This document shows, one piece after another, positions 28,874-59,061 of a DNA stretch of 64,000 nucleotides. Positions within the stretch are counted from its first letter, which is position 1. Each line of letters starts with the position of its first letter. The notes beneath the pieces were generated by a model. It ran no database searches, had not been told where the DNA came from, and saw only the letters and a program-made list of their open reading frames with translations. The stretch is from Limonium bicolor (lineage: Eukaryota > Streptophyta > Magnoliopsida > Caryophyllales > Plumbaginaceae), in contig CM041783.1 in NCBI GenBank assembly GCA_023374045.1, positions 94,089,298 through 94,153,297 on the forward strand, given 5' to 3'. The position numbers and the translations under genes were made by a program.

Positions 28874-29704
28874 TTAGATCGATCCTGGGGGGTGGTTATG
28901 AGGAGGAGATCCAAAGCATGACTCGATGGTATTTTTGAGTGTCCACCGGGATGCATGTTTTCTTTTCTTATCCCACTCTTCATCCGGGATTGGTGGTGGT
29001 ATTTCTGTAATAGACATGCTGTCTGGAAGGGTGATAAAGAGAAGTGGGGATGATGGTGATTGAGTGTCCCGCACAAACTTGAGATCCTTAGATTTGTTAT
29101 CTGGAGATCTTCCTGATGCAAACTCCAGTTTTTCATTATAAGCGTGAAGGGTGATTGTCCCCTGGGCTACCCAAATGTGCACATCTGCTGTGGCAAGGAA
29201 TGGTCGTCCAAGGATGAGAGGTGTAGTGGAGTTCTCTTCGATGTCTAGAATGACAAAATCGCATGGGAAGTATAAGTGTTCCACTTTGATGATAACATCC
29301 TCCACCACTCCGCTTGGGTAAGTTACCGAACCATCCGCCAGTTGAAGGGTCATCTTGGTCTTTTTCATCTCTCCAATTCCCAGCTTTTTGAAAGTGGAAA
29401 GGGGCATCAAATTAATGGAGGCACCCAGATCGCATAGGGAGTATGGAAATGAGGTGCTACCAATTGTGACTGGAATGGTGAAGCTGCCTGGATCATTACA
29501 TTTTGAAGGCAGTGGTTGTTGCAGAATAGCTGAGCAAGCTACATTGAGTGGTACAGTACCGACTTCGGCCAATTTAGTTTTGTTGGATATAAGGTGTTTG
29601 AGGAATTTGGCGTAGTTTGGCATTTTGGCAATGAGGTCTACAAACTGTATGTTGACGTTTAGCTGTTTCAGCATTGCTAGAAACTTACCATATTCATTAT
29701 CCAA
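28874..29704 (-). pseudogene. Athila-like aspartic protease
   Basis: An open frame of 276 codons. The N-terminal part resembles the Athila gag-protease linker (MPNYAKFLKHLISNK). The retropepsin core has the active-site triplet as DLGAS (near 29430), then LADGSVTYPSGVVEDV and a C-terminal LILGRPFL flap-like strand (near 29215). It would cleave the Gag polyprotein. The frame is separated from the upstream linker by an in-frame TAG at about 29713. The ORF ends naturally with no RT after it. The domain itself looks intact, so protease could be active if translation reached it. Confidence 0.8.
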
Positions 29705-29713
29705 CTTCTGCTT

Positions 29714-30340
29714 CTAGAGTCGGTGGGGAAATGGTATAGGCGGTTCTTGTGGAGAAGATTTTGAAGTTGATGGAATAGTGAGGATGCTGGGAGATGTTTT
29801 TTCTACTGGGGCCTCAGCTTTTTCTTCACTATCCTCTTTGGATTCTTCTGACCTTTGCGGGATGTGAATCTCGTCGGTTTTTCTACCGCTTCTCAAGGTT
29901 ATTGCCTTAACCTCCTCTTCTTCTTCTTCAAAGTCGAGCTTTTCATTTTCATAGCCGGCCTCCAACTGCTCAAGGTAGGTATTCTCGGACTGAATGTGAT
30001 TTTATAGACTTTGGCAGTGCTTTCCAATTCAGCTACATTCCTTTTGGAAGTTTCGATTGCTACTACCCACTCTTGAAGGGAAGGGTGAAGTTTTGGAACC
30101 TCAACTGTTTTAGCCACCTCCATCTTTTCTTCACCGTGTTCCTTCACATAGATGCATTTGGCTTGCTCTCTTGGATTCGGCTCCGTTTGGCTTGGGAGAG
30201 CCCCTGGCGGTCTTCGAGCAAGATGTTCTACAAGTTGATTGAATTTACCTTCGATTTTCTGGTTGAAGGCTTCTTGTGCAGAAAGCTGGTTCTGAGTCAT
30301 AGTCATGTAACCCTTCATCATCTCTTTGAGTTCTGCGTTT
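29714..30340 (-). pseudogene. Athila-like gag C-terminal part and linker (frameshifted)
   Basis: Two overlapping open frames (29899-30321 and 29714-29965) continue gag after the frameshift near 30340. The second holds a glutamate-rich stretch and the VKAITLRSGR box that precedes the protease in Athila proteins. Frameshifts near 30340 and 29930 and the stop at 29713 split what was one Gag-protease frame. Confidence 0.7.
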
Positions 30341-31622
30341 GGATCAACAGAGGATGAAGATGGTTGTTGTTTTGTTGGAAACCTGGAGGGGCACTCAGTG
30401 CTCTATAACCCATATTAGAGTTTGGTTGGGGTCTGTTTCCCTGATAGGTATTGGAACTGTTGTTCTGCCCTCCTTGGTTCTGATCATTGTTTTTCCATGA
30501 GAAATTCGGGTGATTTCTCCATGGGTAGTTGTTGTTGATGTTATTGTTGTAGGAATTACCGGGGAGGTTTCCTATGAAATTCACATCTTCATACTGGTTT
30601 TTACCTTCGCACTGATGAGTTTCATGAGGACCGGTGCATATGACACATCCTTCTGTGGGTGGAACTGGTGGTGAACTTGTAGGTGGGGAAGCTATTGTTT
30701 TTACGATTTCGTTTTGAGATGTTGTTAGCTTTTCCACCATCTTTGCAAGGGACGAGATCTGAGCCGATAAATGATCTGTAGGCTCTACATGGAGTAGGCC
30801 TGCTGCTCGTGGTGTTCTTCCTTTGGATCTCGTCCACTGTCTTGTATTGCTCGTCATGGTTTCGTGAAGGTTCATCCCTTCTTGAGGAGATTTCATCATG
30901 AAACTTCCTCCTGCAGAGGAATTTACGAGTAGTATGTTTCCATCATCTAGGCCATTGAAGAATGATAGGCAAAGGGATTGATCGTCGAGACCATGGTGGG
31001 AACATTTCATCAACATATCCTTGAATCTGTCCCATGCGTCGTATAACGTTTCTCCCGGCTCCTGACAGAAAGTGTTGATTTCACCGATCAATTGCCTCGT
31101 TCTACTGGTTGGGTAGTATTTGGCAAGGAATTTTTGGGCCATTTGCAGCCATGTGGTGATTGATCGGGAGGGAAGACTTCGGTACCACCTGTTTGCTGAA
31201 TCCGACAACGAGTGAGGAAATAGTTGTAGACGGATTCTTTCTTTGACGTTGCCGGTCTGACCAAAGGAATTGCAGAAGTCTAGGAAGAGACTCAGATGAT
31301 TTGGGGCTTCATCTGGGTTCGCTCCACTAAACTTGCCTAAATCCCGGACGGCGGTGATGTAGTGGGTTTTGAAAGCCCATCGTCCGGCTTCTTGTGGTGT
31401 TAGTTCAGGGAGAACTATGGTTGATGCTCTTCCTTCGGTATCCGGTTGGTGGTAGTCAGAGAGAGCACGGTGTTCTGGTTGATTTGCATGGTCCATTTCA
31501 TTTATAACTTCGTTATTGGCCATGGCTTGATTTCTCAGGTTTCTTTGTGCTTGTAATAAAGTGCGCTCGGGTTCGGGTCTCGGACTGACAAGTGGAGAAC
31601 CTCGGGTTCGAGTATTTGGCAT
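30318..31622 (-). pseudogene. Athila-like Gag
   Basis: Starts at the ATG at 31622 and stays open for 434 codons, the last few of them out of the ancestral frame. Residues about 85-220 form the plant retrotransposon gag (capsid) domain, with the hallmarks RLQLFPHSLSDSANRWYRSLP, TTWLQMAQKFLAKYYP and GETLYDAWDRFKDML. A zinc knuckle of the Athila type (CVICTGPHETHQC, C-x2-C-x3-H-x4-C) sits at about residue 327, followed by an Asn/Gln-rich tail. Gag would form the particle and bind RNA. The frame ends by a shift before the C-terminal part. Confidence 0.85.
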
Positions 31623-34640: not shown

Positions 34641-34645
34641 ATAAA
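34641..34645. repeat. Target-site duplication ATAAA (left)
   Basis: Identical to 53546-53550 once the nested Tekay element is removed. Confidence 0.75.
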
Positions 34646-35974
34646 TGTAACACCCCATCTCAATCCAAATGTGGTTTCTCAACTTATCAACATATATATA
34701 CATATCACAGCGGAACTCAGTACACTCCAGGACCTTGCCACGGTCTGACTACAGAATATACCGAACATTAATACATATCACTCTTAGCCAAGTACATATC
34801 TTTCTTACAATCCCCTCACATCCTATACATCTTACTAACTCAAATTGCCTTACGAGTGTACATGCACAACTCGTAGGCCTCACTTAACCCGTAACGCTTG
34901 TACCCCTTCTTACTCTCGCGACGGCCGCCTCCTGACGTTCACCTGTGTAGTAAAAACATCCCCCAAAGGGGGTCAGCACGATTGCTGGTACGATCCTCTC
35001 ATGGCCCCCAAGCTAACGTGGCTACGACGACTAATTGTCGATAGCATGGAGGTTGATTAGATGCACAACATAATAGAAGGTGCAATAAACAATCAATCCA
35101 AATATGAACAATCAAAGTTCAAACAATTGAACGACTTAGATGCATTCCCTTAATTAGAGAGTTAATTATTTAACTCCTTAAGTTACATTTCCTCTTAATC
35201 TTAGTCCATCCTTATCTTGCCTCAATCTTAGTCTTATCTTAATCTTAGAAAACAACCATCCTTTAAAAAGGAATGGATGTAGCTTATCTCAGTCTTATAA
35301 TACAAACCATCCTTTAAAAAGGAATGGTTGCAACTTATCTCAACCTTATCTTAATCTTAGAATACAAACCACTCTTTAAATAGAAATGATTGTATCTTAT
35401 CTCAATGTTTATTTTTGTCGGGTCAAAAGCAACCCTAGCCAATGAGCTATTAACTCCATTGGTTGAATAAACAAATTATCTTATAATTTAGGATTTAGGT
35501 GATCCTACCGCACCATCTTAATGCCACCTACCTTGAGCCGTATGTCCAACGTAGATGGGCCGGTAACCGACCCTAGGCAACAAGTCCAAAGACAAGTCCT
35601 TAATCGGAAGTCGGATCTGCTATAGATACCGACCCCCTTTTTCCTTAGCATGCATGACCGGAGTCAGTCCCGGGTTCCTCACTCCCCCCTTAAGTTCCAG
35701 TTAGTAGAAGTCTCAAGACAATGTTTGTTGGTTAACCTCTTTCGGTTTATAACAAACTAAAATTAGGGAGCGTTCCTTAGTCTCACTCAATTCCTTACTA
35801 AACGTTGGTTAGTAAGTTCTCACGGTAAGTTGTGTTAGTTTTCAAACATCACACAACAATACAATAAACATAATGTTCCGGTTGCATGCTTTATCTCGTT
35901 TAGTGAGCACACAAAAACAAATAGCACACAAGCCGAGGGACACCTCGTTAGCTAGCAGGTCACAAGAAGAACTG
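34646..35974 (-). repeat. Solo Gypsy LTR, left part
   Basis: Begins TGTAACACCCC on the plus strand, the complement of the LTR end GGGGTGTTACA. It matches the LTR at 59062-63720 and continues at 50354-53545. The Tekay element interrupts it and duplicates AACTG (35970-35974). Confidence 0.85.
35970..35974. repeat. Target-site duplication AACTG (left)
   Basis: Identical to 50349-50353. Confidence 0.85.
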
Positions 35975-35981
35975 TGAAATA

Positions 35982-36011
35982 CCCCTAAATTAATTTAAAT
36001 TAATTTAGGGG
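35982..36011. repeat. 30-bp perfect palindrome at the LTR start
   Basis: CCCCTAAATTAATTT followed by its exact reverse complement. It sits 7 bp from the LTR terminus and is repeated at 46429-46458 in the 3' LTR. Confidence 0.9.
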
Positions 36012-39000
36012 ATTTCTTTTATTAAAAATTTACTTATTATATGGAATTATGAATACTAAATTATTATATGGAATTGTGAAATTTATTTAGGGGTTTTCTC
36101 CTATTTAACCCTAATTATTATACATTATTATATAGTATTATGAATTTAATAATAAGATTTATAAGTCAATAAATCTTGGGAAAATTTCTAAACACTCCAA
36201 ATATATTATAAAGATTTTAGGAAGTGTTGGAACATTGTTTTGAAACATAAAAGTCAATATAAAATTCTAGAAACCTTAAAGCTTATTAAGCCTTGTTAGA
36301 GTTGACTTTTTGAGAATGGTCAAACCAGGCCATGAAACCTATACCAATAAATAGGTTATGAAAAACCATGAAGATCGATAAAAAGAACGTTAAAAACGGA
36401 TCATCCTAGCCAAAGTTATGATAAATTGAAGTTTAGAGCCAAAATTTTGAAGGATGCTGACGTGTCCAGGACACGTGTCGCGCCCAGTCAGCACCCGACA
36501 CTTAACCGTTTGATTTTCCCAGCGGTTTTGGCATGTCGAGGGTCGATCTTTAGACACCTATATCTTTTTCCTACTCCACCATTTGGTATGCCGTTTGTTT
36601 CATTCGATTCTCCTATCTTTCCTCTTTCCAACCATTACTCACACACCATCTAACTCCTTCTACAATGATCGGAAAGTTGATCCAAAGTTGCCTCCTCGCG
36701 AGTTCGTAACCCAGAACTGCAGTTTTTCCTGAAAACGGGTAAACTTCGTCACGCCATAACTTCTTCATTTCTCGTCCAAATTCTTGTTCTTTAGCTTGTT
36801 TTGAAGATCTCTAATCCCTCTATAACTTTCATGTTGATGGCCAAGGCTGATTCGCACTGGGTTGGGAGATAAATCTGTCTAAAGTTGCCCACTCGATCAC
36901 GGCGGTAATTCTGCCCAGTTTCATCCTGAACCAACTAGGTAAACTCGGATCTTGTGAGATCTATAACTTTCTCCCTAGTTCATCAAAATCAATGATTCTT
37001 CCACTAGCATCTAGAGTTACATGTCTAGTTTGGATTGTGATAGGTTACATGAATCAATCTCTCTCAGTTGGTGCGAGTTGATTCGAGAAGAGGCGTACCT
37101 GAAACGCGCATAAAATACCGATTCCAGAATTGTCGACTTGGTTTCACGATTAATGCAATTCCGGTAAGTTTCTGGCCAAATTGTTCCATTGATGCCATTC
37201 GAAATTTCATCACCGATCAAACCCACATGCCAATTTAGTCTATTATGCATTACAATGGGAGAATTTGTAGGAATTGCAACCGAATTAAGTTCTGTACCGA
37301 AATAAACCCTAACTCTCGAATCGATTTCGAAACTTGGTGTATACTGCATTATAATTGGGGAAATCGGTACCATTAGAACCGGAATTTGATTACGAATCGA
37401 TAGGAACAAGAATCATCGAATTTCGTTCTGTAGATTGTGAGTTATAGGGTGATTAGTACTCGGGTCGGAAGGGGAGAACGCTGAAGAACTCGAGGGTTCT
37501 GGGCCGCCCGATCGCGATTAAAAGAAACGGACGGCCACGATTAAAACGTTTCAAAATATAAGTATAAGTTTTTATATTATTTCCAGAATAAAGTCCTAAC
37601 TTGCTAGATTTATTTAATGGCCTTCCCGATTGTATTTTGACTTGAAATTTTAACCATAGATTCCTTATAAAGTCTAGTTTATTTTGATGTAAATTAATAT
37701 GAGTTTTAAGTTTTTAAACATAAGTTATGAATTTTGCAAGTTACGGGTATTATGGAATTATTTGGGTGATTTAAAAAGATATTTTTATGGAATAAAAATT
37801 TTATAATATGTCTAAAATGTTATAGTTATTATATATTAAGTTTGGGAATTTTTGGGCAAGGGTAAATAGGTTTAAAAATTATGTTTATGAGTTTTTCATA
37901 AGAATAACCTATAATATAAGGTTTTTAATGTAACCAAAAATTAAAGTATGGTTGGGTAATTAACTTTTTAGGATGGGGAAAATAATTAAACCTAAATTAA
38001 CATTTTACATCAGTATGTTTATAAATATTTTGGGTGTTATCTTTTCGGTGAAGTAAAAGTTGTTTACACATAAATATATATATATATGAGAAGAATAAAA
38101 TAGGGACTTATATTAAATCGAGGTATTAAACTAAACTACATATTATTATTATGTAGGTTAATATGCTTAATTAAACTAGGGCAAACACTTTATTTTATAA
38201 ACCATATATCAGTTGTGGAGATGTCTAAAAGATATTAGATATAATTAAATACAATAAGAATTTCTTAAAGAATGTTTTGGATAAATCCTAAGAAAAATAT
38301 AAGTGTATATATAAATACATTAAAAGTAAATAAGAGAAGTAACATTCCTTATGGGAAACATATTAAGAGGGAAAAATTGGGATAAACCTAATTCCTACGT
38401 GGCAATTAAAAATATTAAAGGTTAGTGTGACATCCAGGTAGACTATTAGGGGGAAATACACATCCTAAACCTTAATAGGTGTCAAATTAAGTTAGCCAAT
38501 CGTAACCCAAGGGATTAATTAAATCAAACCTATAATCAGGAGTGGGTAAATGGAGTAAGATAAGTTTACATTAAAAATTTAATTACGAGATCTAGCCAGA
38601 TCCTTAGGAGGGAGTAACTGTAAAACGAAAATATAGACTAATAAGAATGGGGGATGTGTAGCATTATAGTGCCTTAACTAATCAATACTTGGAATACTTT
38701 AATTATAGGTGATTAGTGGAAGTAGTTCGCATTTTCAAGTTTGGTTGCTGCTTCTACATATACCAGGTACGATTTCTCGTACTCAGATACTTTTTGGTGA
38801 CGAACTTCTTGGAATGTTTTGAGAAACGCTAACTGAGCTTGAATGAATCTCGAAAGGGAACTGTTGTGTGACTAACTCAGCTTGATGTGACTAACTGGAC
38901 CTTGAATGTACAATTCACATGATCATTGGTTCTCCTTATCTGGTTACCTCATTAGATATTAACTGCTGAGGGTTTACGCTTCTGCACTCTGTAGGACTGA

Positions 39001-39140
39001 GTGTTTTGGTATTGCGCTCGTGCAGTTATTAATCTAGTGGGAATATGGGAATGTTGATCTTGGTAAATTCTTCTTTCGACTATGGATATCATTTCAACCA
39101 TGAGCTGAGTCTTTGTTGTGATGTGCGCACATCTTCACCG

Positions 39141-39269
39141 GTAAACAGCGAGGGGCTGTATATCCCCTGTCCAATCGGACGTGGTAAACAGCGAGGGGCT
39201 GTATATCCCCTGTCCAGACGGACGTTGTAAACAGCGAGGGGCTGTATATCCCCTGTCCTATCGGACGTA
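39141..39269. repeat. 43-bp tandem repeat x3 with two nested hairpins
   Basis: Units start at 39141, 39184 and 39227. Each holds AGGGG-8 nt-CCCCT and then GTCC-4 nt-GGAC; the loop bases vary (AATC, AGAC, TATC) while the stems do not. A partial fourth unit follows. The same array is at 49578-49706. Confidence 0.85.
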
Positions 39270-39915
39270 GTCAACAGCGAGCCATCTCTTCCAATTGGTT
39301 TCATTCCACCCTTGAGTTGTTGTTCTTGGATTTCTTCTTTCCTTTCCTAGTCCTTGTGACTACTTGGGTTTTTCCACTCTTACTGGAACTTAATCTAACT
39401 TAAGCATGGGATGTTCACTAACTCCTGGTGTGGTTTAACTGACTAACTTTATCTTTATTGTTGACTATCTCTATTACTTGCTTGTTGCTTTGACTTGGTG
39501 ATTTGAAGTGCCTTGTCCCTCTGTTTGGTTTTTAAGAGTTTCTTTCTAAGTTTCTATATTGTTAAAGATTATGTTTTAATTTCTGTTATGAGGATTGTAC
39601 CAGTTCCATTCCAGGGAACTGACTCACCCCTCCCGGGGTGGGCTGCTTGGTTTCATCATGCAGGTACGAATTGTTGTACAGGTGGCCACGAAGAGAGTGA
39701 GTGTATGGGATGGGAATTAGGAATTTTGGAGAGCTATTGTATCTTGTTATTATTACTTTTATGTGATGTTTTCTCGAGTTCAGACCGTAGCTTCTGTAAT
39801 TTCATAAGTTGTAATTGGTGAGGTTTGGTGCCGGGTGTTTGGAACCCGATGATCTGTAATCGCCTTAGTGTTTTATTTCCGCTGCATTTATGTTAAATAG
39901 GGGCGTTACAGAAAG

Positions 39916-39927
39916 TGGTATCAGAGC
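39916..39927 (+). other. Tekay primer-binding site (tRNA-iMet)
   Basis: TGGTATCAGAGC five bases after the 5' LTR. Confidence 0.93.
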
Positions 39928-40199
39928 GTAGTTACGCTCTGAGCCCGAGAAAACAAGCCGAGTGAAATACTTAGAATATAGGTGCCCTTAAAACTGGGGA
40001 AGTGGGGTAGAATTGGGAAGTGAGGATTCCAGAAAGGCACGTTACCCTTACCCCATACTTTGCCTTACTTACATTACTCATGAACACACTAACTACATAC
40101 CGTCCATGGGTAGTTATGAAACACTTCGCGCGTTACTATTTAGATATCTAGAATTAATACGCAACATCTGAACAACAAACACCATCCTTTAGCAGCTAA
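39928..40199 (+). other. Tekay 5' leader
   Basis: 272 bp between the primer site and the gag ATG. No ORF of note. Confidence 0.6.
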
Positions 40200-40861
40200 A
40201 TGTCTCAAAGAGGAGGAAGAGGAGGACGTGGAGGAAGAGGAGGACGAGGAGCGGGACCCCCAGGTGGTTACGGACCCGACGCTGTTACCCCTGAGGTCAT
40301 AGCTCAGATTGTGACCGCTGCATTAGCTCAGCAGCAGGCTCAGATCCCTCAACCACCGCCACCACCACCCAATGGTCCACGAGAGTTTAACTGGTTGAAA
40401 GCGGTCAACGATCTTCGTCCCCCAGTCTACGAAGGCCAGCCAGTACCAAAAGCTCTGGAGAAATACATAGCTGAGATTCAAAAGGCTTTTACCTCTCTAC
40501 ATGTTCCAGCAGAACGCCAAGTGGACATAGCGGCCTACTTTCTCCAAGGGCCCGCTCATCGATGGTGGCAGACAGCCAGAGCCGAGCTGACCGCTCAAGC
40601 GAACTTTGATTTCCAAGCTTTTCTGGTGGCCCTGAGAGCTAAGTTCTACCCATCCTACCTACAGAAGAGGATGAGAAGTGAATTTGAGCAGTTGAAGCAG
40701 GGGACTTCCTCTGTTGCTGAATACTATGACAAGTTGTGGAGTTGCTTGCCGTCATTGGCGAGGGGGCTTACGCTCCGAGGTATTTGGTGGACAAATTCCA
40801 TACCGGCTTGGACTTCAGGATCATGAATATGATCGGTTCCACCAGAGGAAAGACTTTACAG
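40200..40861 (+). CDS. Tekay gag, exon 1
   Basis: Starts at the ATG at 40200, preceded by an in-frame stop (TAA). The N-terminus is an unusual RGG-type Gly/Arg repeat (about residues 4-17), followed by a Pro/Gln-rich stretch (about 40-58). The gag capsid domain follows (about 65-180), with the QVDIAAYFLQGPAHRWW and FLVALRAKFYPSYLQKRMRSEF motifs. A one-base deletion near 40739 shifts the frame; the next frame continues the capsid domain to the CAG at 40859-40861, where a GT donor begins. RGG repeats are a known RNA-binding feature, so the N-terminus may help bind element RNA (inference). Confidence 0.85.
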
Positions 40862-40928
40862 GTATAAAATATGACTATGAAATTTCTAGCATGCTTGGAT
40901 TCCCCACTAACACGTGCTGTAACGACAG
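40862..40928 (+). other. Candidate intron 1 (gag)
   Basis: 67 bp, GTATAA...GACAG, with a CACTAAC branch-point-like word 22-28 bases before the acceptor. Left in, it adds in-frame stops; removed, gag runs on in phase 0 into the GAA CTA codons of exon 2. Confidence 0.75.
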
Positions 40929-41139
40929 GAACTAGCTGATGATGCGAATGACTGCGAAACCACCATCGCATACCAGGATTCTGTGCTAGGGAAGAGGAGG
41001 AATGATAATGGAGGAGGAAATGGAAGAGGATCCTCTCAGAATCATGAGAAGAGGGGAAAATTTTTCAAGGGAGGGAATGAGAAGGCCATCGTTCCTTCCC
41101 ATGCTGATGCTAAGCCTCTCCGCTATGAGCCACCTAGGG
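40929..41139 (+). CDS. Tekay gag, exon 2
   Basis: 211 bp with no stop in the gag frame. Encodes the linker after the capsid domain, starting ELADDA and rich in Gly, Asn and Lys. It ends in phase 1 at a donor reading GGGG/TGAG. Confidence 0.75.
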
Positions 41140-41208
41140 GTGAGAAAAGATAGAATCTACAATGTAGCTTTATTTTGCTATCACATTACTAACCTTGAAT
41201 TGAAACAG
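41140..41208 (+). other. Candidate intron 2 (gag)
   Basis: 69 bp, GTGAGA...AAACAG, T-rich, with an ACTAACC branch-point-like word 18-24 bases before the acceptor. Splicing joins a phase-1 donor to a phase-1 acceptor and restores a glycine codon. Confidence 0.75.
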
Positions 41209-41553
41209 GAGACAACCCGGTGAGAAGGTATTTCTGCAGGTGGTGCCAGAAGGATCACCCAGGAAAGGACTGTAAAGGGAACCTGGTAGAATGCCACTAC
41301 TGCGGTAAGAAGGGGCACAGGGGGTTCGAATGCTTCTTGAACCCGGACTCCAAGAGTTACAAGCCACACACCGGGTCGACGGCTAAAGCCCCAGCTACAA
41401 ATGCTGCCGGAGGAGGAGGTAGAGGTGGCACAGGAGGTGCAGGACCATCTACCAACCGCCCTGCCCAGAGCTACCCTCAAAGGCCGGGCAAAGCACCAAT
41501 TCTCAACCTGGTGGACCGTGTTGAATCAGCTAGTGATGATCCGAGCTCACCTG
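41209..41553 (+). CDS. Tekay gag, exon 3 (nucleocapsid zinc knuckles)
   Basis: 345 bp. Two zinc knuckles stand in tandem: CRWCQKDHPGKDC and CHYCGKKGHRGFEC, both C-x2-C-x4-H-x4-C. They would bind RNA. A Gly/Ala/Pro-rich tail follows. Unspliced, the frame stops at 41583-41585 after about ten more codons, giving a plain Gag. Spliced at 41553 (donor GTGAGG), it ends in phase 1 and can join either the AlkB exon (41735) or the small protease-side exon (42542); both joins are in frame. Confidence 0.82.
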
Positions 41554-41734
41554 GTGAGGACTACTTTCCTACTGAAGAAGCTTAGACCTTCGTTCCACTT
41601 AATTTCTTCAAGCAATTTTTCCTCTACATTGTAAAGGGATGAACTATAAATCCCTCTTTCTTTTACATCTTTGTGCTAAGACCAGTTTGAACCTTGACTT
41701 GTTTTACTTAATGGCAATTGTTGTTTTCGTTCAG
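41554..41734 (+). other. Candidate intron 3a (gag to AlkB)
   Basis: 181 bp, GTGAGG...GTTCAG, with a T-rich tract before the acceptor. The longer alternative, 41554-42541, uses the same donor and skips the AlkB exon; its acceptor GTTGTAG also follows a T-rich tract. Confidence 0.65.
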
Positions 41735-42444
41735 CTTTCGATATTTGCTTTCCTGTACTGCCTATTTCCACACCCACCATTCCCTTTGAGGCCAAACCAC
41801 ACCCACCAGAGAAGTGTGAGATATTGAGGCCTGGGATGGTCTTATTACGAGAATTTCTGACCCCAGCTGACCAATATGCATTGATCCTCAAGATCAGAGA
41901 ATTAGGTGTGAAAGGAGGAAACTTTTACACCCCTACCTTCAAGAACGGTGCGACCATGAAGGTAAAGATCATGTGCCTAGGTAAGAAGTGGGACCACACC
42001 ACTGGAAGCTATGAAGAGGTGGAGGTGCCACCAATTCCAGGAGAGTTGCAGACCATTATCGGGGCTGCAGTTAAAGCGGCCCAGGAATTGGAGGATGAGC
42101 CCGTCCCAGACCTAACCTCAGACGTGTGCATCATCAACTTCTATGGGAAAGAAGGTAAGCTAGGAATGCATCAGGATAGGGACGAGTCTCTGGAGTCCAT
42201 CACCAGAGGAGTTCCAGTGGTGTCCATATCACTTGGAGACGATGCGGAGTTCCTATTTGGAGATCAGAAGAGAATGGATCTCGCTACAAAGATCCTCCTG
42301 AAGTCGGGTGATGTGCTATATTCGGGGGAGCAGCCAGACTTATCTACCATGGGGTGAAGAGAATTAAGCCCCACACCCCCCATCCATCATCAACCAGACC
42401 ACATGAAACCTGGCCGTTTAAATCTGACCTTTAGACAGATCTAG
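41735..42444 (+). CDS. AlkB-like 2-oxoglutarate/Fe(II) dioxygenase exon in the retrotransposon
   Basis: Plant ALKBH1-type AlkB domain. Seen: FDIC near the exon start, LRPGMVLLREFL, MKVKIMCLGKKWD, CIINFYGKEGKLGMHQDRDE, in which HQD is the HxD iron-binding pair (residues 116 and 118 counted from the ATG at 41824), then PVVSISLGDDAEFLFGD and LKSGDVL. The distal iron ligand lies in another frame as IYHGV (about 42345), after a one-base deletion near 42317. A one-base insertion in the C run at 42376-42381 returns to the first frame for the 2OG-binding RxxxxxR motif, RLNLTFR, just before the TAG stop. AlkB enzymes oxidatively demethylate nucleic acids. All key residues are present, but this copy as read is frameshifted. 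Its location inside the target duplications shows it belongs to the transposon, not to a host gene. Confidence 0.9.
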
Positions 42445-42541
42445 CCTTGTAATTTATGCAATTTCAGCATTGTAATCATTAAAATGCTCACGAAGACCTT
42501 AATAAGAGTGGAAATCTTATGAGTTTGTTTCGTCGTTGTAG
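42445..42541 (+). other. Non-coding spacer and acceptor before the protease-side exon
   Basis: Follows the AlkB stop. AT-rich, ends in a T-rich tract and GTTGTAG acceptor. It would be removed as part of the long intron 41554-42541. Confidence 0.55.
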
Positions 42542-42616
42542 GGGTTGGGAACTCAGAGATCAGGTTGACTGTGTTGAACCAGGCTCAAGCGAAGAGCAAT
42601 GGGATGGTCATCACAG
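42542..42616 (+). CDS. Small Pol exon upstream of protease
   Basis: 75 bp, two bases plus 24 codons plus one base. Joined to the gag donor at 41553 it is in frame. It encodes the strand leading into the protease and ends AQAKSNGMVIT plus the first base of a glycine codon. Confidence 0.65.
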
Positions 42617-42689
42617 GTATAACTACTAGCCTGATTTATTACCTTGGAAGTAATGCCTGAGAATCTTAGAATCTACTCTGTGGTTTCAG
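42617..42689 (+). other. Candidate intron 4 (inside protease domain)
   Basis: 73 bp, GTATAA...TTTCAG, splitting a glycine codon (phase 1). It contains CTGAT, a branch-point-like word. The related Gypsy protease at 57966-58207 reads straight through this point (ILTGTFPVNG), so the insertion here behaves exactly as an intron should. Confidence 0.8.
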
Positions 42690-43340
42690 GCACGTTCTTA
42701 ATTAATGAGGTGGAAGCCACTGTTCTGTTTGATTCTGGAGCCTCCCATTCATTCGTATCCCAGGCATTCCATGCTAAGATAGATGCCCCCACAGAGGATA
42801 TCCATGACTGCTCAGTTTTATTGCCATCCAGAGAGTTAATCAAGTGCAGTAAGCAATGTAGGACTTGAATATACGCATCAAGGGAGCAGATTTCCTCTTT
42901 GATGCCATTGTCTTCCCTGGCATGGGGTTCGACATAATTGTGGGCATGGACACACTACAGCGATACAGAGGTAGGCTTCACTGTGCAGAGCATCGCCTCC
43001 TCTTGAAGTCAGCTACAGGGATCACAGTATCATACCGAATGCAGCCCAAGCAGCCGACTGTGAAGGTTGTATCGGCATTATCCCTGATGAAGGAGGTGTC
43101 CAAGGGAGCGACCGCCTACTACTGTTATGCCCAGGATCTGAGGACAGATCCAAAGTTCAAGAGTGACGTACCTGTTGTGTCGGAGTACCCCGACGTTTTT
43201 CCGGAGGAGTTACCTGGACTACCACCATTGAGGGAGGTTGAGTTCAACATCGACCTCATACCTGGTACAGGACCGATTGCCAAAGCACCCTACCGGATGG
43301 GCCCTGCGGAGATGGTGGAATTGAAGAAACAACTCAGGAG
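42690..43340 (+). pseudogene. Tekay aspartic protease
   Basis: Retropepsin with the catalytic DSGASHSF motif (D codon at 42731) and a conserved FDIIVGMDTL strand near 42920, then the linker SEYPDVFPEELPGLPP that precedes RT in Gypsy Pol. It would process Gag and Pol. Single-base deletions near 42864 and 43334 break the frame; the domain order and residues are otherwise complete. Confidence 0.85.
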
Positions 43341-44100
43341 TTACTAGATAAGGGTTTCATCCGACCCAGTGTCTCACCTTGGGGTGCTCCTGTGCTGTTC
43401 GTCAAGAAGAAGGACGGAAGCATGAGATTATGTATTGACTACAGGGAGTTGAATAATGTCACGATCAAGAACAAGTACCCACTGCCCAGGATCGATGACT
43501 TGTTCGACCAGCTGAGGGGAGCTAAGGTGTTCTCTAAAATTGATCTGCGTTCCGGGTATCATCAGATAGCTGTAGCTGAGACAGATATAGAGAAGACAGC
43601 CTTCCGGACCAGATATGGCCACTATGAGTTCACAGTGATGCCATTTGGATGACCAATGCACCGGCGAGATTTATGGATTTGATGCAGAGAGTCTTCCAAG
43701 CCCAGCTAGATAAGTCAGTGGTCGTATTCATAGACGACATTCTGATCTTCTCCAAGAGCAAAGAGGAACATGAGCAGCATTTGAGGACAGTCTTGGAGAC
43801 CTGAGAGAGAGGCAACTCTATGCCAAGTTCAGCAAGTGCGAATTCTGGCTGGACAAGGTATCATTTCTTGGTCATGTGATCTCAGCTGAGGGAGTTTCAG
43901 TGGACCCAGCTAAAATTGAGGCGGTAAAGAGCTGGCACAGACCTCGCTCAGTGACTGAGATTCGGAGCTTCCTTGGGTTGGCTGGCTATTATAGACGCTT
44001 TGTGAAGGATTTCTCCAGGCTAGCCAAGCCCTTAACCTCTCTGATGAAGAAGGATAGCCGTTTGTATGGACAGAGGCATGTGAGGTCTCCTTTCAGGCAC
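43341..44100 (+). pseudogene. Tekay reverse transcriptase
   Basis: Standard Gypsy [52 protein letters not shown] and the catalytic FIDDILIFS box (near 43727-43750, the Y/FxDD motif), then the thumb [11 protein letters not shown] and [15 protein letters not shown]. Frameshifts of one base at about 43650, 43802 and 44058 divide it into separate open frames. All catalytic aspartates are present. Confidence 0.9.
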
Positions 44101-44540
44101 TGAAGGATGCTCTGACCACAGCTCCTGTATTGGTGATCCCCGAGGGAAATGAGGGATTCGAGGTTTACTGTGATGCTTCGGGCAAGGGGATCGGTGGAGT
44201 ATTGATGCAAAATGGTAGAGTCGTGGCTTACGCTTCTCGACAGCTGAAGAAGCACGAAGAAAATTATCCCACACATGACCTTGAGCTCCTCGCCATAGTT
44301 TTTGCCTTGAAGATCTGGCGACACTACCTGTATGGAGCCACGGTCCGAATTATGACAGATCATAAGAGTTTGAAATACATCTGGACCCAGAAGGAGCTGA
44401 ACTTGAGGCAACGACGGTGGATCGAGCTACTAGCTGATTATGATATCGACCTCCAGTACACTGAGGGTAAAGGTAATGTCGTGGCAGACGCTCTGAGCAG
44501 AAGCACATTCACTTCTTGCTCTCATAGAGACGACCACGAT
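44101..44540 (+). pseudogene. Tekay RNase H
   Basis: Gypsy RNase H with [37 protein letters not shown], the MTDHKSLKY strand and the end motif [12 protein letters not shown]. It would degrade the RNA strand of the RNA-DNA hybrid. The frame is broken just after the domain by a one-base deletion near 44507. Confidence 0.88.
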
Positions 44541-45430
44541 AGCTGAGGAGGTATATGCAGCTCAGGACAGTGATGTGTATCTACAGGGTATCAGGCAGAA
44601 ATTAGCAGATGGGTTGACTGATGGTCTGAAGTATGACTACGAGCTAGACAGCGAGGGACACCTTCGAGTTAGAGGCAGACTCTGCGTTCCTCAGGATGCG
44701 ACAGAACTTCAGACCAGGATTCTCTCTGAAGCTCATTCCTCTACGTTATCAGTACATCCTGGAGCCACCAAGATGTACAAGGATTTAAAGAAGTTATTCT
44801 GGTGGAGCGGGATGAAGAGGGATGTAGCAGACTTCGTCTCGCGATGTCTCACCTGTCAGAAGGTGAAGTTCGAGCATCGGCGACCAGGAGGCCAGATTCA
44901 GTCATTACCAGTACCGTGCTGGAAGTTTGACGATATTAGTATGGATTTTGTGGTCGGTCTCCCTCCAGCTAGAGGTGGATTGAACACAATTTGGGTGATA
45001 GTGGATAGGTTAACTAAGACAGCTAAGTTTATACCTATCAAGGACACATGGAAGGTGCCCAAACTAGCTGAGGTGTTCACCACAGAGCACATCCGGTACC
45101 ATGGGGTACCGAAGACGATCGTCTCCGATCGTGATGCACGTTTCCTTAGTAGATTTTGGCGTCAGGTGCAGGAGGCATTTGGTACTCAGTTGCGACTTAG
45201 CACAGCCTTCCACCCTCAGACAGATGGGCAGACCGAGAGGACGATTCAGACACTGGAGATATGTTGAGAGCGGTCGCCTTAGACTATCAGGGGAGTTGGA
45301 TAGAGCGTCTACACTTGGTAGAGTTCTCCTACAACAACTCCTATCACTCGTCTATCGGCATGGCCCCATTTCAGGCTCTGTATGGCAGACCGTGCCGGAC
45401 ACCTTTATCATGGAGTGACCCGCTGAGACA
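44541..45430 (+). pseudogene. Tekay integrase (zinc-binding and catalytic core)
   Basis: The HHCC zinc finger spans H-S-S-T...VHPG to CLTCQ (about 44730-44860). The DDE core shows its first Asp in MDFVVGLPP, the second in VSDRDARFLSRFW and the Glu in QTDGQTERTIQTLE. It inserts the cDNA. One-base deletions near 45258 and 45425 break the frame near the end of the core. Confidence 0.9.
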
Positions 45431-45979
45431 GTTTTGATTGGTCCAGAGTATGTTCAGAGACTACAGGATGACATCAGAGTTATTCAGCAGCACATGAGGG
45501 CAGCGCAGTCTAGGCAGAAATCTTACGGGGATCAGCGTACCAGAGAGCTTGAATTTCAGATCAGTGATATGGTTTTCCTACGAGTATCTCCGATGAGAGG
45601 TATCTTCAGATTTGGGATGAGAGGAAAGCTAAGCCCTAAGTATGTTGGTCCGTACAGGATTACGGAGCGCGTGGGCCCAGCAGCATATCGGCTAGACCTA
45701 CCAGCGGAGTTGGGGAAGGTACATGACGTGTTTCATGTATCTCAGCTGAAGAAGTATGTACCTGACCCTTCTCACGTGCTACAGCCAGAGAGATTAGAGA
45801 TTGAACCTACACTGAGATATGAGGAGACTCCCATACAGATCCTGGACACGAAGGTCCGGGAAACGAGAGGCAGATCAGTCAAGCTGGTGAAGGTTCTTTG
45901 GGAGCATCATGGGGTTGAAGAAGCTACTTGGGAGTCTGAGGACTCTATGAGAGTGAAGTACCCACACCTATTCCCATGA
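45431..45979 (+). pseudogene. Tekay integrase C-terminus with chromodomain
   Basis: Includes the GPYRITERVGPAAYRLDLP (GPY/F) module at about residues 75-95, and a C-terminal chromodomain with LVKVLWEHHGVEEATWE and KYPHLFP up to the TGA at 45977. In chromoviruses this domain is thought to steer integration into heterochromatin by binding modified histone H3. The frame from 45434 to 45979 is intact, though it depends on the upstream frameshifted part. Confidence 0.88.
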
Positions 45980-46421
45980 TATTTCCTTGTATTCTTGCCT
46001 TTACTGGGTTCTTGTTCATAGCGGTACGAGGGCGTACCTTGGCTCTTTTCGGGGGGGGGGGGGTAGTGCATACTCTTCCTTCGTCACCTCATCCAGATTA
46101 TGCCCTGTTTGTTTTGTTAGTAGAATGATGGAGAGGTGTATGCATGTACTTGATTTATACATTGTGTGATTCTTGATTTCTGTTTATGAAAATCTTGGTT
46201 TTGGTCTGACGATGAATAATCTTGCGTGGAATTTGGAAATGGAAATGAGTGGAAATGGATTGTGGGAGAAGTTACAATTGGTATGGATTGGTATGGAATT
46301 TTGGTTGGGATTGTTATTGGATGAATATTCTGGTAATTTTTGACAGCACACCTGATGTGGTGTGAGTAGCTATTAGTTGGTGATAAACTTCGGGACGAAG
46401 TTTCTTTTAAGGGGGATATAC
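45980..46421 (+). other. Tekay 3' non-coding region, G13 run and polypurine tract
   Basis: 442 bp without ORF of note. A run of 13 G lies at 46051-46063. The CGGGACGAAG word and the purine tract TAAGGGGGAT (about 46408-46417) precede the 3' LTR, as in other Tekay elements. Confidence 0.75.
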
Positions 46422-49400
46422 TGAAATACCCCTAAATTAATTTAAATTAATTTAGGGGATTTCTTTTATTAAAAATTTACTTATTATATGGAATTATGAA
46501 TATAAATTATTATATGGAATTGTGAAATTTATTTAGGGGTTTTCTCCTATTTAACCCTAATTATTATACATTATTATATAGTATTATGAATTTAATAATA
46601 AGATTTATAAGTCAATAAATCTTGGGAAAATTTCTAAACACTCCAAATATATTATAAAGATTTTAGGAAGTGTTGGAACATTGTTTTGAAACATAAAAGT
46701 CAATATAAATTCTAGAAACCTTAAAGCTTATTAAGCCTTGTTAGAGTTGACTTTTTGAGAATGGTCAAACCAGGCCATGAAACCTATACCAATAAATAGG
46801 TTATGAAAAACCATGAAGATCGATAAAAAGAACGTTAAAAACGGATCATCCTAGCCAAAGTTATGATAAATTGAAGTTTAGAGCCAAAATTTTGAAGGAT
46901 GCTGACGTGTCCAGGACACGTGTCGCGCCCAGTCAGCACCCGACACTTAACCGTTTGATTTTCCCAGCGGTTTTGGCATGTCGAGGGTCGATCTTTAGAC
47001 ACCTATATCTTTTTCCCTACTCCACCATTTGGTATGCCGTTTGTTTCATTCGATTCTCCTATCTTTCCTCTTTCCAACCATTACTCACACACCATCTAAC
47101 TCCTTCTACAATGATCGGAAAGTTGATCCAAAGTTGCCTCCTCGCGAGTTCGTAACCCAGAACTGCAGTTTTTCCTGAAAACGGGTAAACTTCGTCACGC
47201 CATAACTTCTTCATTTCTCGTCCAAATTTCTTGTTCTTTAGCTTGTTTTGAAGATCTCTAATCCCTCTATAACTTTCATGTTGATGGCCAAGGCTGATTC
47301 GCACTGGGTTGGGAGATAAATCTGTCTAAAGTTGCCCACTCGATCACGGCGGTAATTCTGCCCAGTTTCATCCTGAACCAACTAGGTAAACTCGGATCTT
47401 GTGAGATCTATAACTTTCTCCCTAGTTCATCAAAATCAATGATTCTTCCACTAGCATCTAGAGTTACATGTCTAGTTTGGATTGTGATAGGTTACATGAA
47501 TCAATCTCTCTCAGTTGGTGCGAGTTGATTCGAGAAGAGGCGTACCTGAAACGCGCATAAAATACCGATTCCAGAATTGTCGACTTGGTTTCACCCCGAT
47601 TAATGCAATTCCGGTAAGTTTCTGGCAAATTGTTCCATTGATGCCATTCGAAATTTCATCACCGATCAAACCCACATGCCAATTTAGTCTATTATGCATT
47701 ACAATGGGAGAATTTGTAGGAATTGCAACCGAATTAAGTTCTGTACCGAAATAAACCCTAACTCTCGAATCGATTTCGAAACTTGGTGTATACTGCATTA
47801 TAATTGGGGAAATCGGTACCATTAGAACCGGAATTTGATTACGAATCGATAGGAACAAGAATCATCGAATTTCGTTCTGTAGATTGTGAGTTATAGGGTG
47901 ATTAGTACTCGGGTCGGAAGGGGAGAACGCTGAAGAACTCGAGGGTTCTGGGCCGCCCGATCGCGGTTAAAAGAAACGGACGGCCACGATTAAAACGTTT
48001 CAAAATATAAGTATAAGTTTTTATATTATTCCAGAATAAAGTCCTAACTTGCTAGATTTATTTAATGGCCTTCCCGATTGTATTTTGACTTGAAATTTTA
48101 ACCATAGATTCCTTATAAAGTCTAGTTTATTTTGATGTAAATTAATATGAGTTTTAGTTTTTAAACATAAGTTATGAATTTTGCAAGTTACGGGTATTAT
48201 GGAATTATTTGGGTGATTTAAAAAGATATTTTTATGGAATAAAAATTTTATAATATGTCTAAAATGTTATAGTTATTATATATTAAGTTTGGGAATTTTT
48301 GGGCAAGGGTAAATAGGTTTAAAAATTATGTTTATGAGTTTTTCATAAGAATAACCTATAATATAAGGTTTTTAATGTAACCAAAAATTAAAGTATGGTT
48401 GGGTAATTAACTTTTTAGGATGGGGAAAATAATTAAACCTAAATTAACATTTTACATCAGTATGTTTATAAATATTTTGGGTGTTATCTTTTCGGTGAAG
48501 TAAAAGTTGTTTACACATAAATATATATATGAGAAGAATAAAAGGGACTTATATTAAATCGAGGTATTAAACTAAACTACATATTATTATTATGGAGGTT
48601 AATATGCTTAATTAAACTAGGGCAAACACTTTATTTTATAAACCATATATCAGTTGTGGAGATGTCTAAAAGATATTAGATATAATTAAATACAATAAGA
48701 ATTTCTTAAAGAATGTTTTGGATAAATCCTAAGAAAATATAAGTGTATATATAAATACATTAAAGTAAATAAAAGAAGTAACATTCCTTATGGGAAACAT
48801 ATTAAGAGGGAAAAATTGGGATAAACCTAATTCCTACGTGGCAATTAAAAATATTAAAGGTTAGTGTGACATCCAGGTAGACTATTAGGGGGAAATACAC
48901 ATCCTAAACCTTAATAGGTGTCAAATAAGTTAGCCAATCGTAACCCAAGGGATTAATTAAATCAAACCTATAATCAGGAGTGGGTAAATGGAGTAAGATA
49001 AGTTTACATTAAAAATTTAATTACGAGATCTAGCCAGATCCTTAGGAGGGAGTAACTGTAAAACGAAAATATAGACTAATAAGAATGGGGGATGTGTAGC
49101 ATTATAGTGCCTTAACTAATCAATACTTGGAATACTTTAATTATAGGTGATTAGTGGAAGTAGTTCGCATTTTCAAGTTTGGTTGCTGCTTCTACATATA
49201 CCAGGTACGATTTCTCGTACTCAGATACTTTTGGTGACGAACTTCTTGGAATGTTTTGAGAAACGCTAACTGAGCTTGAATGAATCTCGAAAGGGAACTG
49301 TTGTGTGACTAACTCAGCTTGATGTGACTAACTGGACCTTGAATGTACAATTCACATGATCATTGGTTCTCCTTATCTGGTTACCTCATTAGATATTAAC

Positions 49401-50348
49401 TGCTGAGGGTTTACGCTTCTGCACTCTGTAGGACTGAGTGTTTTGGTATTGCGCTCGTGCAGTTATTAATCTAGTGGGAATATGGGAATGTTGATCTTGG
49501 TAAATTCTTCTTTCGACTATGGATATCATTTCAACCATGAGCTGAGTCTTTGTTGTGATGTGCGCACATCTTCACCGGTAAACAGCGAGGGGCTGTATAT
49601 CCCCTGTCCAATCGGACGTGGTAAACAGCGAGGGGCTGTATATCCCCTGTCCAGACGGACGTTGTAAACAGCGAGGGGCTGTATATCCCCTGTCCTATCG
49701 GACGTAGTCAACAGCGAGCCATCTCTTCCAATTGGTTTCATTCCACCCTTGAGTTGTTAGTTCTTGGATTTCTTCTTTCCTTTCCTAGTCCTTGTGACTA
49801 CTTGGGTTTTTCCACTCTTACTGGAACTTAATCTAACTTAAGCATGGGATGTTCACTAACTCCTGGTGTGGTTTAACTGACTAACTTTATCTTTATTGTT
49901 GACTATCTCTATTACTTGCTTGTTGCTTTGACTTGGTGATTTGAAGTGCCTTGTCCCTCTGTTTGGTTTTTAAGAGTTTCTTTCTAAGTTTCTATATTGT
50001 TAAAGATTATGTTTTAATTTCTGTTATGAGGATTGTACCAGTTCCATTCCAGGGAACTGACTCACCCCTCCCGGGGTGGGCTGCTTGGTTTCATCATGCA
50101 GGTACGAATTGTTGTACAGGTGGCCACGAAGAGAGTGAGTGTATGGGATGGGAATTAGGAATTTTGGAGAGCTATTGTATCTTGTTATTATTACTTTTAT
50201 GTGATGTTTTCTCGAGTTCAGACCGTAGCTTCTGTAATTTCATAAGTTGTAATTGGTGAGGTTTGGTGCCGGGTGTTTGGAACCCGATGATCTGTAATCG
50301 CCTTAGTGTTTTATTTCCGCTGCATTTATGTTAAATAGGGGCGTTACA
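46422..50348 (+). repeat. Tekay 3' LTR
   Basis: 3,927 bp. Palindrome at 46429-46458, 43-bp hairpin repeats at 49578-49706. Followed directly by the target duplicate AACTG. Confidence 0.93.
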
Positions 50349-50353
50349 AACTG
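50349..50353. repeat. Target-site duplication AACTG (right)
   Basis: Identical to 35970-35974. Confidence 0.85.
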
Positions 50354-52938: not shown

Positions 52939-53545
52939 AGTAACTCCTTTTACTTACTCTTCTTTATCCTTTCTTATTTGATGAAGTCTTGGGTGACTCA
53001 TCCCTTAGAAAACCGGCCCCCTCTTAAATAAGGCTAGTCATGGCTTTGTTGACCAACTAATTAGCTTATATTTATTAAAACTTAAACTAGTCACTATTTG
53101 GCACTATTCACTAATAGTGCACATATTCGTGAAATTTTTGGTTTCCCATTGATTTAGGCTTCCTAATGTGATACTAATTAGTACACATGTTGATTAAGAT
53201 GTAATCTTGGGCATTTAGCCACTCAAAACTCAATCTAAGACAATTTCTCAAAAAGGTGCTTTAAGGAGTCTTAAAGCACATTTTGTGTTTAAGCTTGTTT
53301 TTGAGCTTGGTTTTCTTTGCTAATTGATTTAAAATGTCATTAGCATATTACTAAAGTCTTATAATGGTATTTGGGTGCTAATCAAAGTCCTGCAAGCTTA
53401 GAGCACGTTTTTGCCCAAATTGCCCTTAAGGCATTTTCTTGTTTTTCCTTGGTTTAAAAATTCCTACTAATATTTCTAAAGCATATTTAGCCTTACTACA
53501 TCATAAATTGATGTTACTTAGCATACTTAGGTTTGGGTTATTTCA

Positions 53546-53550
53546 ATAAA
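53546..53550. repeat. Target-site duplication ATAAA (right)
   Basis: Identical to 34641-34645. Confidence 0.75.
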
Positions 53551-57223: not shown

Positions 57224-57965
57224 ACTACTGTCCATGGTGAGGTTATCGGGTTGTCTTAACATGACACCCAACTGGTATTTAATTAACATGGTTTGGTGGA
57301 TGGGGCCTTAAAGGCCAAATTAAATTAATTATGGAAGTTGTACGCTACGGCGATTGTACATTGTGCATTATACTACAATTATTCGATACTTTCGATTATG
57401 CAACTGCTGTTTGTGATATGAAATGAATGTTTGGATTGGATGGATGGTTATGTTTATATACATGATTATACAGTATTAAATATATCTGTAAAATGGTAAA
57501 GCATGAAACCAATCTAATAATAAGATGGTTAAAATGACTAAGTGACCATTAGGGTCCAGGCCCGGCATACTCAGTGTCTATCGCTGATACTACACTCATT
57601 GCAGGTTGATGATTATTGTCGAAGCCGAAGTGCGGGAATAGGGTAATTAAAGTTCATTTTAATTACCGCACATGGAGTTGTATTATGGTACGGTTATGTA
57701 TATTTGGGATTGGGTAGACGCTCACTTGTCGATGTTTATCAGTATGGACTTAGTATGATGTATAGGATTATTCTCGTTATCACGACGGTTAGCAGTTTTT
57801 TTATGTTGGAAGTTGGATATAGTTTGGCTTCGTTGCTCGCATGGGCGAGTAATGGCCGGTGACACCCGAGTGAGTATTGTTGTTGTTATTATTTCTTCCG
57901 TTGTAAGACGTTTTATTTATTGCTACGTGAGAGATTATTACGTGATTATGGAGAGGGGTGTTACA
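57224..57965 (+). repeat. Old Gypsy LTR, 3' part
   Basis: Ends GGGGTGTTACA, the usual LTR terminus of the Tekay-like elements here, at 57965. No primer site follows; the next base pairs are protease sequence. The start of the LTR is not identified; it probably lies in the AT-rich remnants to the left. Confidence 0.5.
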
Positions 57966-58207
57966 GGAGGTATACTGAGTGTCTGCAATGAGGCAGAAGC
58001 CGGCAGGAGCGGCACGATCCTCACCGGTACCTTTCCAGTTAATGGCGTGGACACATTGATCTTGTTCGACTCCGGAGCCTCACATACATTTATCTCGCTG
58101 TCATTTGCGAAGAGGCTGGGGTTAGACGGTGAAGAGATACTTGACTTTCTAGTCACTCTCCCGTCGGAAGAGCGGATCAAGTGTACCCGCTACTACCGAG
58201 ATGCTGC
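57966..58207 (+). pseudogene. Gypsy protease fragment joined directly to an LTR end
   Basis: About 80 codons, starting GGILSVCNEAEAGRSGTILTGTFPVNG and including the retropepsin active site DSGASHTF. It ends EERIKCTRYYRDAA, where an LTR-like TGTAACACCCC begins at 58208. Gag is entirely missing: protease follows the LTR end without primer site or leader, so a deletion or recombination joined them. It has no intron at the position of intron 4 of the Tekay element. The open frame runs on to 58589 but that part is LTR sequence. Confidence 0.75.
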
Positions 58208-59061
58208 TGTAACACCCCTACCATTAGTACAGTGCTTACCGTCCAATCTCCATACATATCAGATACACGCAGCGGAAATATACTTACATACAATGGGTGA
58301 TACAATGCCGTTAGTCACCCACGTGACTAACAAGGCTACTACCTCTACATACAGCATCGGTCTGATGGACCGGAATCCCGAGTACTACGCATCTAGAATA
58401 CATACTCCATTCATCAATCAATTACAACAATACTCCATTCAGTACTTACTCCTCTTCAATCCATACAATACAATATACTTAACCGAGTCTACTAGGATCC
58501 TTATACAATTATCATATCCCTTCCAAGTTCATACATACACCCTAAGAGACTACTTACTACCCATTCCTCACTACTACATTACTTTCTAAATACAAAGGGT
58601 GTGCTAGTTGATACACCTCTACATTCTACTACTACTATCCAATGTAGTCGCCGGTCTCGTGCCTTGACCACATTCGCTTCGGGTACCTGCACACTAAAAA
58701 ATGTATACCCCGCGTACTAGTGAGGGTACGCCGACCACTTGGTCGAATACATGCGGTTCATTTATTCACACAACATGCATACATGCTTTCATACTCAATA
58801 CTACATTACTTTCACAAGGCATACATACACACATACATTTAATTACATTCAAGGAACACAATACAATCATCCAATACATACTTACCTTCTTCCGAATACA
58901 CATACGCATTATATACACAATATACAATACTTGTTAGCTTCATTGGTCCACCCGGGTTAATCGGGTGGAGATTACTCTTTTACTCGTTACTTCATACATA
59001 CGCATACATACTCATACTCATACTTACTTACGGTTCCATACTTACTTACTCTTACTCTTAC
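58208..59061 (-). repeat. Partial Gypsy LTR, interrupted
   Basis: Begins TGTAACACCCC with GCAGCGGAAATA further in, like the ends of the related LTRs (CACAGCGGAA). It is cut at 59061 by the next insertion. Much of it is simple CATAC/CTTAC repeat, so the open frames are not coding. The remainder should lie beyond the right edge of the window. Confidence 0.6.

Follow-up and report, generated by a model that had tools for sequence, protein, structure and literature searches.

An ALKBH1-type dioxygenase exon between gag and protease in a Ty3/gypsy retrotransposon family of Limonium bicolor

AlkB-type dioxygenases are already known from plant Ty3/gypsy retrotransposons. According to the available part of one report, the Phalaenopsis element Gypsy_Pa_2799 contains an open reading frame (ORF) for an ALKBH5-like AlkB protein that is active on N6-methyladenosine (m6A) RNA in vitro, and a screen of 121 plant genomes found AlkB-bearing elements in only two Phalaenopsis species (PMC9289625). 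The subject here is a 14.4-kb Ty3/gypsy element at positions 35975-50348 of a 64,000-nucleotide window of the Limonium bicolor genome (contig CM041783.1; the window is the whole stretch of DNA analysed). It holds, between gag and protease (PR), an exon predicted to encode an ALKBH1-type dioxygenase. A matK piece from this genome fits a Limonium host: it has 96% identity over 92% of the query to a cluster named for Limonium carolinianum, 93% to another Limonium, 87% to Popoviolimon and 79% to Plumbago; L. bicolor has eight chromosomes (PMC11001596), as many as the genome has large contigs.

The orchid and Limonium families are both plant Ty3/gypsy elements that have kept and amplified a PF13532 domain with conserved cofactor residues. 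As far as the available text describes it, Gypsy_Pa_2799 is about 25 kb long, is related to Ogre/Tat, and has a dual RNase H, a tRNA-Arg primer binding site (PBS) and its AlkB gene as a separate ORF2 (PMC9289625). In contrast, the Limonium element is 14.4 kb long and has a chromodomain-like pol end, a tRNA-Met-type PBS and an ALKBH1-like exon that lies not outside gag-pol but, in all 20 stretches taken from the genome, after the gag zinc finger and before PR. The encoded protein is not ALKBH5-like; its closest matches and folds are of the ALKBH1 type. Because AlkB type, element lineage, location and layout all differ from those of the orchid element, the Limonium exon appears to be an independent capture of another AlkB type. 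The initial annotation of the window knew of no standard Tekay element with this domain. As a kind, an AlkB domain in a plant Ty3/gypsy element was known from orchids, as the available text of that report indicates; what seems to be new is the ALKBH1 type, the lineage, the position and the exon's own predicted 3' splice site. No report of an AlkB exon in chromovirus or Limonium elements was found among the papers listed from the open-licence literature.

A parallel in position is provided by the betaretrovirus dUTPase, a nucleic-acid hygiene enzyme that is likewise encoded between nucleocapsid and protease and fused to Gag; it differs in being made by frameshifting, in hydrolysing dUTP and in having no sequence relation to AlkB. 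Splicing, which is predicted here, sets the Gag and Pol products of Ogre, EVADE/Copia and BARE1, and the available part of the source mentions for them no additional enzyme-coding exon whose acceptor would compete (PMC12786077). The sunflower Tekay group also has an extra conserved ORF, but this lies 5' of gag-pol and no dioxygenase is reported for it in the accessible text (PMC11728184).

In the window copy, the first uninterrupted part of the exon alone (41737-42357) matches PF13532 with E = 7.5e-28 and 98.5 bits (cut-off 31.2). The exon is preceded by an AG at 41733-41734 and ends in a TAG at 42442-42444; the interval first marked, 41735-42444, thus coincides exactly with it. The motifs HQD, IYHGV and RLNLTFR occur in the expected order, though not in one frame: HQD and RLNLTFR share the frame starting at 41737, and IYHGV lies in another. 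Because the motifs are split over two frames, the window copy yields no complete enzyme as assembled. These frame breaks may be assembly indels or genuine damage. The long terminal repeats (LTRs) of the element are separated by 3 substitutions over 3,921 aligned positions but also by 15 indel events, of which 12 affect a single base, and this excess of small indels suggests that some of the breaks are assembly errors. Family copies with an uninterrupted AlkB frame exist, and an open copy matches PF13532 over its full length (1-194 of 194) with 169.6 bits.

The closest solved structure by sequence is rice ALKBH1 (240 bits), followed by E. coli AlkB (83 bits) and human ALKBH1 (47 bits), in agreement with the type first assigned. 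A structure model (mean pLDDT 90.5) has OsALKBH1 as its best fold match and E. coli AlkB as its second. Named plant matches are of the ALKBH1C/D type. These proteins and rice ALKBH1 (5xeg, 5xoi) share with the element protein about 50% identity, the fold, the metal and cofactor residues and an FDIC motif upstream of the core, whereas the element AlkBs form a separate clade, are encoded by a retroelement and do not have the stretch that separates FDIC from the core in the host proteins. The iron ligands H143, D145 and H203 (HxD...H) do not vary among the aligned proteins (46 of 46). Nor do a tryptophan and an acidic pair after HxD, which align with E. coli AlkB positions W69, D135 and E136, presumably substrate contacts. 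Residues R227 and R233 of the 2-oxoglutarate motif RxxxxxR are present in at least 90% of the aligned proteins, some rows being incomplete. By its sequence, the exon is predicted to encode an AlkB-type dioxygenase dependent on Fe(II) and 2-oxoglutarate, a putative demethylase whose relatives are plant ALKBH1C/D.

A PF13532 profile search of the genome returned 38,325 first-look candidates, which are not copy counts and were not used; all 150 that were scored exceed the cut-off, and 149 have no listed internal stop. Twenty 10-kb stretches taken from the scored matches, on many contigs, all have the order gag zinc finger, AlkB, PR, reverse transcriptase (RT), RNase H (RH) and integrase (INT); the first gag part was matched in 17 (exceptions L013, L022 and L023) and the integrase-end/chromodomain part in 19 (exception L021). 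Exact matches to an AlkB 28-mer of the window type number 243 in the genome and those to a PR 28-mer 262, against none for the reversed controls. On the two contigs covered in full, the PR 28-mer lies within 400 bp of 56 of 74 AlkB 28-mers, and the reverse holds for 56 of 80; an absent partner may be explained by one base change. Four subfamilies, A (which includes the window copy), B, C and D, hold the AlkB exon at the same position, and the AlkBs of B and C have 46-49% identity to that of the window. In a sample blind to AlkB, consisting of the 39 other copies whose integrase DNA is most similar to that of the window (40 were scored), 33 subfamily A copies align over the exon, of which 6 are open to the shared stop; L031, L032, L035, L039, L052 and L065 were left out because they gave no alignment over the AlkB start. 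The AlkB exon is therefore a conserved part of a numerous Ty3/gypsy family and not a one-copy accident or an independent insertion, the two cases that the initial annotation had named as refuting its reading. Its proposal that the element captured an ALKBH1-type domain is borne out, and many family members carry it. Four AlkB-element matches of equal score at G000:C1:497439466-497470353 are spaced almost evenly at about 10.1 kb, like a tandem array sharing LTRs.

The exon evolves under constraint. Ratios of nonsynonymous to synonymous substitution (dN/dS; pairwise NG86, bootstrap over codons) were obtained for subfamilies A, B and C, leaving out regions with stops or less than 75% coverage, so that n varies by region; selection of the A copies took no account of AlkB, apart from the requirement of at least 190 open residues. 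AlkB dN/dS is 0.035 (0-0.10) for the six full A frames. It is 0.133 (0.07-0.22) in B and 0.143 (0.10-0.21) in C, where copies were picked by PF13532 score, which lowers dN and biases the ratio down. Between B and C it is 0.108, with dS near saturation. Within C, the corresponding values are 0.020 for RT, 0.030 for RH, 0.100 for INT, 0.154 for the chromodomain end, 0.169 for PR and 0.229 for the gag zinc finger; since the values are similar, constraint on AlkB is about equal to that on INT and PR. The gap fraction in C is 0.002 in the AlkB exon versus 0.019-0.03 in the introns. Thus, the AlkB exon is under purifying selection in A, B and C.

The most informative feature of the element, one that the initial annotation overlooked, is its splice layout. 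The final gag exon ends at a GT donor, and the AlkB and PR exons each open after an AG. Both exons require a one-base overhang, which the gag donor supplies: the window copy, C copy L011 and D copy L068 are in phase. When the conserved gag end sets the frame, phase 1 is seen at 49 of 51 donor matches, with two exceptions (62 loci, 12 without the motif). Read unspliced, four copies reach a stop 6-29 nucleotides beyond the gag donor (29 in the window). The gag donor is kept in 32 of 32 A copies and the AlkB acceptor in 33 of 33; the donor, AlkB acceptor and PR acceptor are each kept in 15 of 15 C copies and in 4 of 4, 5 of 5 and 5 of 5 B copies, respectively. Identity between copies is 88-90% in introns and 94.5-96% in the AlkB exon, and because the copies are near-identical, conserved splice dinucleotides are by themselves modest evidence.

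Two further introns are predicted within gag in A, B and C, and the gag frame of D runs straight over exactly both junctions while D retains the AlkB donor and acceptor. These intron-free junctions are stronger support for the predicted gag introns than the kept dinucleotides, although the D evidence comes from L068 and L069, a pair so similar (98-99%) as to amount to nearly one observation. With its gag introns gone and its AlkB sites kept, subfamily D looks as if partly spliced RNA had been reverse transcribed (L068:1-4601, L069:1-4601). The predicted intron at 42617-42689, present in A only, points to intron gain or loss inside one retroelement family.

Two trees separate the element AlkBs, together with four additional proteins (P0001-P0004), from 46 and 38 plant ALKBH1-type proteins by a 100/100 branch, and the element clade is nested in no sampled plant lineage. 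The E. coli AlkB outgroup has a saturated branch of length 10, leaving the root unsure, and the position of the clade fits an old capture or fast evolution with a long-branch effect. P0001 and P0003 adjoin B and C, and P0002 adjoins D; they are therefore apparently relatives of these subfamilies in other samples. The best 120 of 547 profile matches (7,995 candidates scored) include no element-type AlkB in a named species, P0001-P0004 being the only members of the clade seen. Two genome searches with plant pieces for the host's own ALKBH1 gene gave element copies at the top, and the candidates L068, L069 and L070 all proved to be element copies; the tree with host paralogues envisaged in the initial annotation thus became one with sampled plant ALKBH1-type proteins. 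A viral origin was rejected, the best predicted viral-protein structures (giant-virus and flexivirus-type) matching at E 1e-11 or weaker versus 1.6e-27 for OsALKBH1. A scan of IMG/VR for close relatives gave two stretches that fit the pattern, neither of which encodes one.

Taken with the layout, we consider it fairly probable that this conserved ALKBH1C/D-related exon is joined to Gag by splice choice and demethylates the element's own RNA or cDNA. A single gag donor would pair with either of two acceptors. Unspliced RNA would give Gag, ending at the stop shortly past the donor; splicing to the AlkB acceptor would give Gag-AlkB, terminating at the AlkB stop; and splicing to the PR acceptor, skipping AlkB, would give Gag-Pol. 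The Gag moiety could then bring the enzyme into virus-like particles, where it might demethylate, repair or unmask element RNA or cDNA. Such marks can matter: in the available part of one study, plant m6A on ONSEN RNA restricts mobility and host ALKBH9B lifts the restriction (PMC12786077). Rice ALKBH1 is proposed to be a DNA N6-methyladenine (6mA) eraser in the accessible part of its report (PMC7758401), and because this is the nearest characterised relative, 6mA, or 1-methyladenosine (m1A) and 3-methylcytidine (m3C) in RNA or cDNA, rank weakly over m6A as substrates. More tentatively, a chromovirus may have made a captured ALKBH1 into a third structural product beside Gag and Gag-Pol, placing a demethylase in every particle to clear marks or damage before integration, within a lineage that is old and present in other plants; the existence of P0001-P0004 suggests the latter and hence an old capture.

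Several observations weigh against the splice-choice model. Among the 33 integrase-chosen A copies, 27 are frame-broken in AlkB, and with damaged frames included (nine frames) dN/dS in A rises to 0.31 (0.19-0.49); the B and C values have the bias noted above. The zinc-finger frame of B copy L009 breaks ahead of the donor, giving phase 0, and in A copy L062 no gag motif was found in the phase check. The pyrimidine tract at the AlkB acceptor of C (CTTAAAG) is poor, the D PR acceptor was chosen by the analyst among several AGs, and the AlkB exon could be reached by another route, such as internal initiation.

That the domain is a host gene with elements inserted in or beside it, or an assembly artefact, is judged refuted by the gag-AlkB-PR placement in all 20 stretches on many contigs, by the hundreds of exact copies and by the single target-site duplication that encloses the entire element. 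Plant retrotransposons do pick up gene pieces, and the many broken A frames would suit a passenger amplified with the element and useless to it; this is very improbable given one position in four subfamilies despite AlkB divergence to 46-49% identity, dN/dS comparable to that of PR and INT, and fewer indels in the exon than in the introns.

The alternatives that grant the enzyme a function fare better. It is possible, if doubtful, that, like bacterial AlkB, it mainly repairs the alkylated bases 1-methyladenine and 3-methylcytosine, be it in the RNA genome or in single-stranded cDNA, instead of erasing regulatory marks: E. coli AlkB is the second closest fold, and the invariant tryptophan and acidic pair align with its presumed substrate contacts. 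The same residues are, however, retained in plant ALKBH1 proteins, and rice ALKBH1 is proposed as a 6mA eraser in the part of the report available (PMC7758401). Expression of the exon alone, from an internal start or short mRNA, would yield a free enzyme with host RNAs or DNA as its targets, one possible effect being weaker host silencing. Such a role was suggested for the separate orchid ORF2, according to the accessible text (PMC9289625), and the catalytic core has a methionine at its beginning (PGM). It is rather unlikely here, since no in-exon ATG before the core was seen in the A, B and C frames and the exon starts with a predicted 3' splice site in gag-donor phase in all four subfamilies (the broken zinc-finger frame of L009 aside).

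The whole element (Table 1) lies, as first described, between LTRs and inside one AACTG duplication, and its PBS and polypurine tract were also located. Pfam matches comprise gag, protease, RT, RNase H and integrase pieces together with PF13532. A Chromo match at the integrase end, before the polypurine tract, has E 0.0016 and 18.8 bits, below the Pfam cut-off of 25.1. The PR-RT-RH-INT order, the 5-bp duplication and a PBS that we take to be of tRNA-Met type are Tekay-type features and make membership in that clade plausible. The insertion is young: a rate of 1.3e-8 substitutions per site and year gives an age of about 0.03 million years.

Table 1. Features of the AlkB-bearing element in the window
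Feature	Position	Strand	Basis
Target-site duplication AACTG, left copy	35970-35974	none	sequence
5' LTR, TG...CA, 3,936 bp	35975-39910	+	
PBS TGGTATCAGAGC, tRNA-Met type (presumed)	39916-39927	+	
gag exon 1 (PF03732 spans 40200-40826), frame broken near end in window copy	40200-40861	+	
Predicted gag intron 1, GT...AG; homologous junction in subfamily D without intron	40862-40928	+	
gag exon 2	40929-41139	+	sequence and homology to subfamilies B and C
Predicted gag intron 2; homologous junction in subfamily D without intron	41140-41208	+	
gag exon 3, carrying the zinc knuckle; followed by donor GT at 41554	41209-41553	+	
Predicted gag-AlkB intron	41554-41734	+	
AlkB-type dioxygenase exon, ALKBH1C/D-like, TAG end; frame-broken here as assembled	41735-42444	+	
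Predicted intronic stretch, AlkB stop to PR acceptor (AG 42540-42541)	42445-42541	+	
PR exon, N-terminal piece, in phase with AlkB exon	42542-42616	+	
Predicted extra intron, subfamily A only; read through in B, C and D	42617-42689	+	
Protease region; RVP_2 spans 42865-43347	42690-43347	+	
RT and RNase H, ORF pieces, interrupted frame	43392-44546	+	
Integrase and C-terminal chromodomain-like end	44575-45979	+	
Polypurine tract	46409-46416	+	
3' LTR, 3,927 bp	46422-50348	+	
Target-site duplication AACTG, right copy	50349-50353	none	

Around the element, positions 57963-58210 match a C-type AlkB element at 92% identity over the end of the AlkB-PR intron and the start of PR, without AlkB, and C-type LTR-side pieces lie on the minus strand at 52962-53547 and 63160-63760. 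A repeat pair (34645-35969 and 59062-60517, 76-86% identical) flanks the element on both sides, as would result if the young element had inserted into an older one. Long minus-strand ORFs at 28874-31622 resemble, judged by eye, gag and protease of another LTR retrotransposon.

As a second independent AlkB capture by plant Ty3/gypsy elements, with a different AlkB type and element lineage, this family would mean that retrotransposition is truly limited by methylation of, or damage to, the element's RNA or cDNA and that elements evolve their own erasers. It also provides a case of an enzyme exon that apparently competes with pol for one splice donor. The idea is testable, because the family is numerous, its young copies are near-identical and one specific gag-AlkB RNA junction is predicted. 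It also bears on whether 6mA or m1A on plant retroelement nucleic acid is of importance.
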